From Bacteroidota bacterium (lineage in GTDB: Bacteria; Bacteroidota; Bacteroidia; Sphingobacteriales; Sphingobacteriaceae): a stretch of DNA of 64,000 nucleotides. How positions within the stretch are numbered: the stretch's first letter is position 1; each line of letters opens with the position of its first letter. Under the pieces are notes generated by a model that saw nothing but the letters and a program-made list of their open reading frames with translations, was not told where the DNA came from and ran no database searches. This document shows positions 24,811 to 26,229 of this stretch, in pieces. Both the position numbers and the translations under genes were made by a program. The stretch is taken from NCBI GenBank assembly GCA_018828585.1, contig JAHJVW010000015.1:1-64000 (forward strand). Reading direction: 5' to 3'.

Positions 24811-24838
24811 TACGATGCGTTAACTCCACTCAGCATGA

Positions 24839-24989
24839 TGTCACCTGAGCATGTCATCCTGAGCATGTCATCCTGAGCGGAGTCGAAGGAGGGAGTCGAA
24901 GGGAATGTCACCCTGAGCCCATTTTTCACTCTGAGCTTGTCACCCTGAGCGGAGTCGAAGGGGGAGTCGAAGGGGAAGTCGAAGAGGGA
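24839..24989. repeat. Intergenic repeat array, left of GIY-YIG gene
   Basis: Several partial copies of a unit with core GTCA(C/T)CCTGAGCGGAGTC followed by GAAGGG, in direct orientation and with truncated pieces (AGTCGAAG repeated up to three times at the right end). This is the well-known style of dispersed repeat in Sphingobacteriaceae and Flavobacteriia intergenic regions. It fills almost all of the gap between rfbA and the GIY-YIG gene. Confidence 0.85.
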
Positions 24990-25004
24990 TGTGTAATAAA
25001 TTTT

Positions 25005-25313
25005 ATGAAATACTATCATGTCTATATATTAAAATGCAGCGACGACAGCTACTATACTGGAGTTACAAATAATATGGAAAGAAGGTTATATGAACACGAA
25101 ATTGGATTGAATAAAAAGTCTTATACTCATAATAGAAGACCTTTAAAACTAGTATTTTGCGAAGATTTTTTAGATATTAATCAAGCAATTGCATTTGAAA
25201 AACAAGTTAAGGGATGGTCAAGAAAAAAAAAAGAAGCTATTATTTCAGATAACTGGGATAAACTAAAAGAATTATCAGTTTGTAAAAATGAAAGCAATCA
25301 TAAAAATAAATGA
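25005..25313 (+). CDS. GIY-YIG nuclease family protein
   Basis: 102-residue single-domain protein of the UvrC/YhbQ-like GIY-YIG superfamily. The two namesake strands read YHVYILKC and YYTGVTNN (residues 3-25), followed by the catalytic arginine region MERRLYEHE (about 26-34) and the metal-binding glutamate in AFEKQVKGWSRKKKE (about 66). It is probably a DNA nuclease; the target is unknown. It is bracketed at both sides by the same repeat family, suggesting that gene and repeats move or spread together. The start codon lies 15 bases past the left array. Confidence 0.9.
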   Translation: MKYYHVYILKCSDDSYYTGVTNNMERRLYEHEIGLNKKSYTHNRRPLKLVFCEDFLDINQAIAFEKQVKGWSRKKKEAIISDNWDKLKELSVCKNESNHKNK

Positions 25314-25326
25314 TGCTTCGTGAAAT

Positions 25327-25470
25327 ATGCTTCGACTCCGCTCAGCATGACACGTGGGCTGTCACCCTCAGCAGAGTCGAAGGGAATGTCACCCTGAGCA
25401 TGTCATCCTGAGAGGAGTCGAAGGAGGAGTCGAAGGGAATGTCACCCTGAGCGGAGTCGAAGGGAATGTT
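25327..25470. repeat. Intergenic repeat array, right of GIY-YIG gene
   Basis: Begins with an inverted unit, CTTCGACTCCGCTCAGCATG, then direct units GTCACCCTCAGCAGAGTCG, GTCACCCTGAGCATGTCATC and GTCACCCTGAGCGGAGTCG. The first two units form an imperfect hairpin of about 22 bp. It is the same family as the array at 24839-24989. Confidence 0.85.
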
Positions 25471-25533
25471 GGCGTAATGGAATATTGGGGTGGTAAAATT
25501 TTAACATTCTGTTAAAGAATAATTGACTAAGGA

Positions 25534-25541
25534 TAGATTTG
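25534..25541 (+). promoter_or_regulatory. -7 promoter element for the four-helix-bundle gene
   Basis: TAGATTTG, a perfect TAnnTTTG match, 27 bases before the start codon at 25569. Confidence 0.5.
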
Positions 25542-25568
25542 AATTATAAATAGTGTAACAAGAGTGGC

Positions 25569-25913
25569 ATGGAGCGTAAAAATATCAATAGAGGTTTTAA
25601 ACAATTAAGAGTTTGGAATGATGCTATTGATTTATATGTTCTTTCGTGTGGAATATTGATGAATTTTCCATTTGAATTAAAAAAAACGGCTGGTAATTGT
25701 ATTGATAGTGTACATAGCATTAGTAGAAATATTGCAGAGGGATATTGCAGGAGGGGCATTAAAGAGTATTTAAATTTTTTGAATATTGCGCTTCCATCAA
25801 GTGATGAGTTTCATTCAAGTTTAGTGAGTTTTTTTAAAGCTCAGCAAATAACTCTTACGGACTTTGAAAAGTTAGATGAGCTACATTTTAAAACCGAAAA
25901 TGAATTAATCTAG
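25569..25913 (+). CDS. Four-helix-bundle protein (23S rRNA-intervening-sequence family)
   Basis: 114-residue all-helical protein of the family named after proteins encoded in 23S rRNA intervening sequences, also related to the Avd accessory protein of diversity-generating retroelements. Family features are FKQLRVWNDAIDLYVLSC at the N-terminus, the SRNIAEGYCRRGIKEYLNFL turn and a last helix after KAQQITLTDFEKLDEL. No enzymatic motif. These genes are scattered singly in Bacteroidota genomes and their role is unclear. No reverse transcriptase or 23S gene is present here. Confidence 0.85.
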   Translation: MERKNINRGFKQLRVWNDAIDLYVLSCGILMNFPFELKKTAGNCIDSVHSISRNIAEGYCRRGIKEYLNFLNIALPSSDEFHSSLVSFFKAQQITLTDFEKLDELHFKTENELI

Positions 25914-26229
25914 TTGATAAATCACTACAAATTAAAATGAAGCATGGTGATTGGGAAAATAGTTTCGGATAAGGAAAGTATAGTGGAAAATTGGGTTAAT
26001 GGAATAGCGGGAAAAAGAAACCCATCCTTCCAACATTCCATTCTTCCGATAAAGAATAGTATAAGCAAAAAATTGAATAGTTAAAACTGGAACATTGAAG
26101 TAATAGAATAGTGGTCTGATGAAACCCATCCTTCCAACATTCCATTCTTCCATTAAAGATTAGTAAAACCCAACCCATTGAACCTAAAATTAAATATCAT
26201 TCACATTTTTACCTTTCAAAAAATAGTTC
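25914..26229. repeat. Intergenic region with a 30-bp direct repeat
   Basis: Contains two copies of GAAACCCATCCTTCCAACAT followed by TCCATTCTTCC, at 26017-26060 and 26121-26165, about 104 bp apart, with shared AT-rich flanks (AAAGAATAGT against AAAGATTAGT). They are direct, not inverted. No open frame of note lies between them. The segment separates the accessory island from the capsule regulator promoter. Confidence 0.8.

Follow-up and report, generated by a model that had tools for sequence, protein, structure and literature searches.

The question raised by this locus is whether a small GIY-YIG nuclease gene lying between two arrays of REP-like repeats is a partner of those repeats, as RAYT transposases are of GTAG-tagged REPs, or only their neighbour. 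The window, that is the whole 64 kb stretch of DNA that was analysed, contains an ORF of 102 aa at 25005-25313 that matches the Pfam family GIY-YIG (PF01541, 61.7 bits, E 8e-17) and has rfbA on one side, a four-helix-bundle gene on the other and a repeat array at either end. The features of the locus are:

24835..24996, strand not assigned: left array, both full units listed next together with incomplete TGTCAyCCTGAGC and GGAGTCGAAGG pieces
24866..24890, + strand: left REP-like unit TGTCA-TCC-TGAGC-GGA-GTCGAA-GGA, exact core 24874-24888; consensus from 300 units
24938..24962, + strand: left REP-like unit TGTCA-CCC-TGAGC-GGA-GTCGAA-GGG, exact core 24946-24960
25005..25313, + strand: single-domain GIY-YIG nuclease, 102 aa, from Pfam match, orthologue alignment and AlphaFold2 model
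25328..25352, - strand: right REP-like unit, inverted, TGTCA-TGC-TGAGC-GGA-GTCGAA-GCA on the - strand, exact core 25330-25344 (-)
25360..25384, + strand: right REP-like unit with 2 core mismatches (copy at 25368), inverted-pair mate of 25328-25352
25401..25425, + strand: right REP-like unit with 1 core mismatch (copy at 25409)
25440..25464, + strand: right REP-like unit, exact core 25448-25462

A first-pass annotation of this DNA had proposed that the gene is enclosed by arrays of one repeat family, and this was borne out by exact TGAGCGGAGTCGAAG cores on both sides, at 24874 and 24946 to the left and at 25330 (-) and 25448 to the right. With up to 2 mismatches allowed, TGAGCGGAGTCGAAG has 7 matches in 64 kb against 0.01 expected. 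The exact core occurs in 26 copies in the 3.58 Mb genome of the window organism (reversed control, 0), and four of the 26 are those around the window gene. The same annotation held that the right array forms hairpins, which stands for its inverted pair (25320-25352 / 25360-25392, 76% complementary), folding better than dinucleotide shuffles with a z of -2.3, but not for single units, which fold no better than shuffles. A 23S_rRNA_IVP four-helix-bundle gene (25569-25913) adjoins the right array, and the DNA around it (25470-26160) carries low-complexity word repeats, e.g. TTCCAACATTCCATTCTTCC twice.

The consensus of the window repeat, here called type A, was derived from 300 copies as TGTCA-NNN-TGAGC-N2/3-GTCGAA-N'N'N', a REP-like hairpin with a covarying stem, and the TGTCA tag is found at positions -8 to -4 in 274-289 of the 300 units. 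Single type-A hairpins are short and thermodynamically ordinary, folding no better than shuffles; thermodynamic stability was therefore dropped as evidence and pairing was judged from covariation between repeats. With one repeat taken per locus, the two variable positions of the stem were complementary in 72/78 and 68/78 repeats, where 26 and 30 of 78 were expected once the right arms had been shuffled, and covariation supports 3-5 pairs. An initial exact pattern, CTGAGCNNNGTCGAAG, was replaced by a wider one because a genus with a 2-nt loop and a GG..CC stem was otherwise missed. Repeats lie close to the gene (median distance 62 bp upstream and 26 bp downstream), and the tag points outward in the nearest upstream unit at 53/71 loci and in the nearest downstream unit at 37/50.

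A search of 121 Sphingobacteriaceae genomes found 20 orthologues of the nuclease at loci that are scattered, 18 of the genes being intact and 2 broken. The core was present near all 20, at one of them (L080) as the variant TGAGGTACTCGAACC, which has a matching stem of its own. The survey was extended to Bacteroidota at large with the best 80 orthologues from one genome per species (84,980 species), which came from Flavobacterium, Chryseobacterium, Dyadobacter, Algoriphagus, Mucilaginibacter, other Bacteroidota and one Marinimicrobia MAG. The core lay within 500 bp of the orthologue in 77 of these 80 and almost none was seen farther out; the three loci without it include L134 and L163. Cores numbered 7.5 per kb in the 450 bp next to orthologues and 0.35 per kb at 600-1050 bp; the same genomes gave 0.0125 per kb over 800 kb of control DNA. 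The type-A core, found at just 1 of the 74 other GIY-YIG loci, is specific to one GIY-YIG clade. The association of nuclease with repeats is a dedicated one, and of this there is very little doubt.

Small GIY-YIG genes outside the orthologue clade proved to have other hairpins on their flanks, with a CGTC or TGTC tag, and 60 paralogue loci were added for comparison of flanks. Matching flanks on both sides were found at 79/94 GIY-YIG genes and at 7/613 random genes (p about 1e-80); further controls gave 3/109 for small genes and 2/43 for genes beside long intergenic gaps. Clade-specific repeats include CGTCATTGCGAG..GAAGCAATC, CGTCATTTCGA..GAGAAATC and TGTCATGCTGAA..TTCAGCATC among others, and a paralogue with the ATTGCGAG repeat type is present at locus L222. 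When all 256 4-base tags were scanned at hairpin feet, CGTC (25.6x) and TGTC (16.3x) led beside paralogues and TGTC (25.2x) was top beside orthologues; GTAG was not among the enriched tags. Strict CGTC REPs, defined by the tag, an 8 bp stem and a 3-6 nt loop, were 44x enriched beside paralogues (80 units in 60 kb, 24 in 792 kb of control), where 86% of them start with AT; the 18 kb of orthologue flanks had none. For 124 nucleases placed on a tree, repeat type needed 26 changes compared with 69.6 when shuffled (as few as 26 in 0 of 200 shuffles, which leave shared ancestry in place). Each nuclease clade has a matched repeat type, which shows partner specificity. The window's own genome has three GIY-YIG genes with three different tagged repeats, the further two (L030, G000:C13:13285, and L029, G000:C66:6415) being accompanied by other tagged repeat families. 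A different GIY-YIG subfamily adjoins tRNA genes at L027, L034 and L373 and is without tagged repeats; at L373 its gene directly follows a repeat-nuclease unit.

Comparison of related genomes showed that gene and repeats are gained or lost as one block. At the floA-adk site one genome (G272) has repeats, GIY-YIG gene and repeat in that order, and five genomes, the window's own among them, are empty there; the bcp-adk site is filled in G075 and empty in two relatives. It is because the relatives without the gene at these two sites are also without the repeats that the two are taken to arrive or leave together. In Mucilaginibacter one site was found filled, empty, or with a decayed repeat alone left. 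No target-site duplication was resolved at filled sites. Inverted outward-tagged pairs flank some copies, of 32 nt with 97% complementarity at L075 and of 37 nt with 95% at L080.

Copy number follows the gene. The earlier annotation had named equal repeat numbers in genomes with and without the gene as grounds for refutation, and the numbers were unequal, with a median of 42 repeats in genomes with an orthologue and 0 in those without (p = 1.2e-9; within-genus permutation p = 2e-4), yet 14/101 genomes without an orthologue still carry at least 10 repeats, so that an orthologue is not needed for repeats to persist or to be served. The genome G014 carries 237 type-A repeats and has neither an orthologue nor any Y1_Tnp; either the nuclease has been lost there or another enzyme serves the repeats.

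The link is also found beyond Bacteroidota. Tagged or core repeats flank GIY-YIG genes on a Planktothrix plasmid (Cyanobacteria), on a Sphingomonas parapaucimobilis plasmid and on a GC-rich contig of a viral collection, and two Methylobacterium replicons carry GIY-YIG genes with CCTC-tagged flanking repeats. The nuclease-repeat link thereby extends to Alphaproteobacteria and Cyanobacteria; relatives in Sphingomonas paeninsulae, Cupriavidus and Legionella had no repeat flanks. A phage link was rejected, with 3 relatives in 2.9 million viral contigs. An alphaproteobacterial centre represented by a 'Rhodobacteraceae' MAG (L171) was likewise given up, since its class sample had a Bacteroidia-like base composition, and the locus was treated as Bacteroidia.

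The closest known arrangement is the REPtron, in which GTAG-tagged REPs are paired with a RAYT (TnpA_REP) tyrosine transposase. Common to both are short, tagged, imperfect hairpins, dispersed as well as clustered and mostly intergenic, with tags often outward in inverted pairs, and single-copy nuclease genes that each have repeats of their own type on either side, with several nuclease-repeat pairs per genome. The tag here is TGTC or CGTC instead of GTAG, and the enzyme is a GIY-YIG hydrolytic nuclease instead of an HUH Y1 tyrosine transposase; we know of no covalent protein-DNA intermediate for the GIY-YIG fold. By analogy the window system would work like a REPtron, yet it has neither an HUH transposase nor a GTAG tag.

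With regard to the repeats, Di Nocera et al. (2013) described a superfamily of CGTC-tagged REPs that is apparently without a dedicated transposase, leaving the mobiliser open (PMC3733652). Its members have the tag CGTC, often TGTC or CCTC, with AT at the stem start and outward-tag (HH) pairs, and they occur in several phyla including Bacteroidetes and Alphaproteobacteria (PMC3733652). The type-A repeat has an allowed tag (TGTC) at one hairpin end, but its stem is ~4-5 bp and its conserved inner part (GAGC..GTCGA) is longer, where the superfamily has an 8-9 bp stem and 4-5 nt loop; strict members, with tag, 8 bp stem and 3-6 nt loop, flank other GIY-YIG clades. The window repeat is a shorter-stemmed relative of these strict CGTC REPs. 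In the open-access literature no paper was found that names the type-A repeat or the GIY-YIG link.

Residues Y17, G19, R27, H31 and E65 are invariant in 18 orthologues, and the GIY-YIG catalytic Y, R, H and E are present. An AlphaFold2 model of the window protein has a pLDDT of 86, and by model comparison the nearest solved folds are UPF0213 followed by Slx1. UPF0213 is a name for structures of unknown function, and Slx1 is a nuclease that cuts branched DNA. The small UPF0213 proteins (1zg2, 1ywl) share the single-domain fold and the size of the window protein; unlike it, they have no repeat partnership that was found in the open-access literature. GIY-YIG homing endonucleases and Slx1 share the catalytic fold but differ from the present case, in which there is no intron, DNA-binding tail or Slx4-type partner and the flanks are hairpin repeats.

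The best explanation is probably that the locus is a self-contained unit in which hairpin repeats are joined with the small, structure-specific nuclease of GIY-YIG type that recognises them. Recognition by the nuclease of its own repeats is likely, and that it drives their dissemination is somewhat favoured, although GIY-YIG enzymes hydrolyse DNA and to our knowledge have no strand-transfer step, which counts against a mobiliser. The nuclease would bind the hairpin of its own repeat family when exposed as a single strand or cruciform, e.g. at replication forks, and make a nick in or close to the (C/T)GTC tag, which faces outward, after which host repair or recombination would copy or move the repeat. 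One nuclease gene could in this way maintain tens to hundreds of dispersed repeats, and might occasionally move too, if an inverted pair with outward tags lies on its flanks. The first-pass annotation had suggested a RAYT-like partnership with a different nuclease, and strong support for this comes from the linkage, from the agreement between repeat type and nuclease clade, and from gain or loss as a block.

The alternative with the most in its favour, though an unlikely one, is that a homing-type selfish nuclease lands in pre-existing REPs, which would be its target and not its product and would be spread by something else. GIY-YIG enzymes do include homing nucleases, the gene is found at many unrelated loci, and the 14 gene-less genomes with many repeats would be expected; against this, the relatives lacking the gene at floA-adk and bcp-adk also lack the repeats, the arrays cluster less than 450 bp from the gene, and no other enzyme was linked to type-A repeats, RAYT loci included. 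Unlike a homing endonuclease gene, the window-type gene is free-standing and intergenic, with no intron, intein or defined allelic target at its many unrelated loci. Less probable still is a repair or housekeeping nuclease that resolves local hairpin structures, or expression controlled by the hairpins, with no mobiliser involved. The nearness of the fold to UPF0213 and to the branched-DNA nuclease Slx1 would fit this, as would repeats near both gene ends, but sporadic presence within genera, shifting locations and a clade-specific repeat type would be unexpected, and dispersed genomic copies need no local gene.

RAYT (Y1_Tnp) transposases of the same genomes could move the repeats, the GIY-YIG link being incidental, and such enzymes are encoded in 27/61 genomes of the family, the window's included. 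This is very improbable, as type-A cores or CGTC-tagged arrays were found at 0/12 RAYT loci (two have other repeats), G042 has 70 repeats and a GIY-YIG orthologue without Y1_Tnp, and no RAYT was flanked by CGTC repeats in Di Nocera et al. (PMC3733652); RAYTs, although present in the family, were rejected as movers on the 0/12 count. That small orphan genes merely happen to sit in repeat-rich intergenic DNA is scarcely credible. Four-helix-bundle (23S IVP) genes have repeated flanks in 14/30 cases in the family, but these are low-complexity word repeats and not tagged hairpins, for which reason IVP genes were rejected as an equal partner; the rarity of matching flanks at control small genes and long-gap genes and the restriction of the core to one GIY-YIG clade also speak against chance.

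On the preferred reading, that of a self-contained nuclease-repeat unit, the data suggest that single-domain GIY-YIG nucleases are the missing dedicated partner of CGTC/TGTC-tagged REPs. By inference they would have the role for these repeats that RAYTs have for GTAG-tagged REPs, as functional analogues of unrelated fold and chemistry. The wider proposal is evenly poised: that such nucleases mobilise the whole CGTC/TGTC-tagged superfamily as a second, independently evolved REP-nuclease system and form an autonomous mobile element that may be the smallest known, with an inverted hairpin, a nuclease of 100 residues and a second hairpin in ~430 bp, and that needs no transposase, integrase or polymerase of its own to move. 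If it is true, two nucleases that share neither fold nor chemistry have each come to domesticate or drive REP-type repeats, and a function can be given to many genes whose sole annotation is 'GIY-YIG nuclease family protein'. As it stands, this is a hairpin-repeat/nuclease partnership with an unrelated enzyme; proof of movement by the nuclease would make it categorically new. The CGTC REPs now have a named candidate, an enzyme family whose clades have matched repeat types, and their mobilisation can be tested directly in vitro and in vivo.

Two observations concern cores in other settings. At position 1501 of L019 and L021, two loci of the genome to which the window belongs, the core is inserted in frame in two related histidine kinase genes, where it gives the peptide A/T-ERSRS between conserved kinase boxes. 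In the window organism's own genome the core is centred in a ~95 bp palindrome, GCGGCATCCTTTTTTGTCATCC-core-GGATAA..CAAAAAAGATACAGC, at L002, L003, L011, L012 and L026 (~1440-1560), and the palindrome around these dispersed cores is possibly a non-autonomous element of its own.
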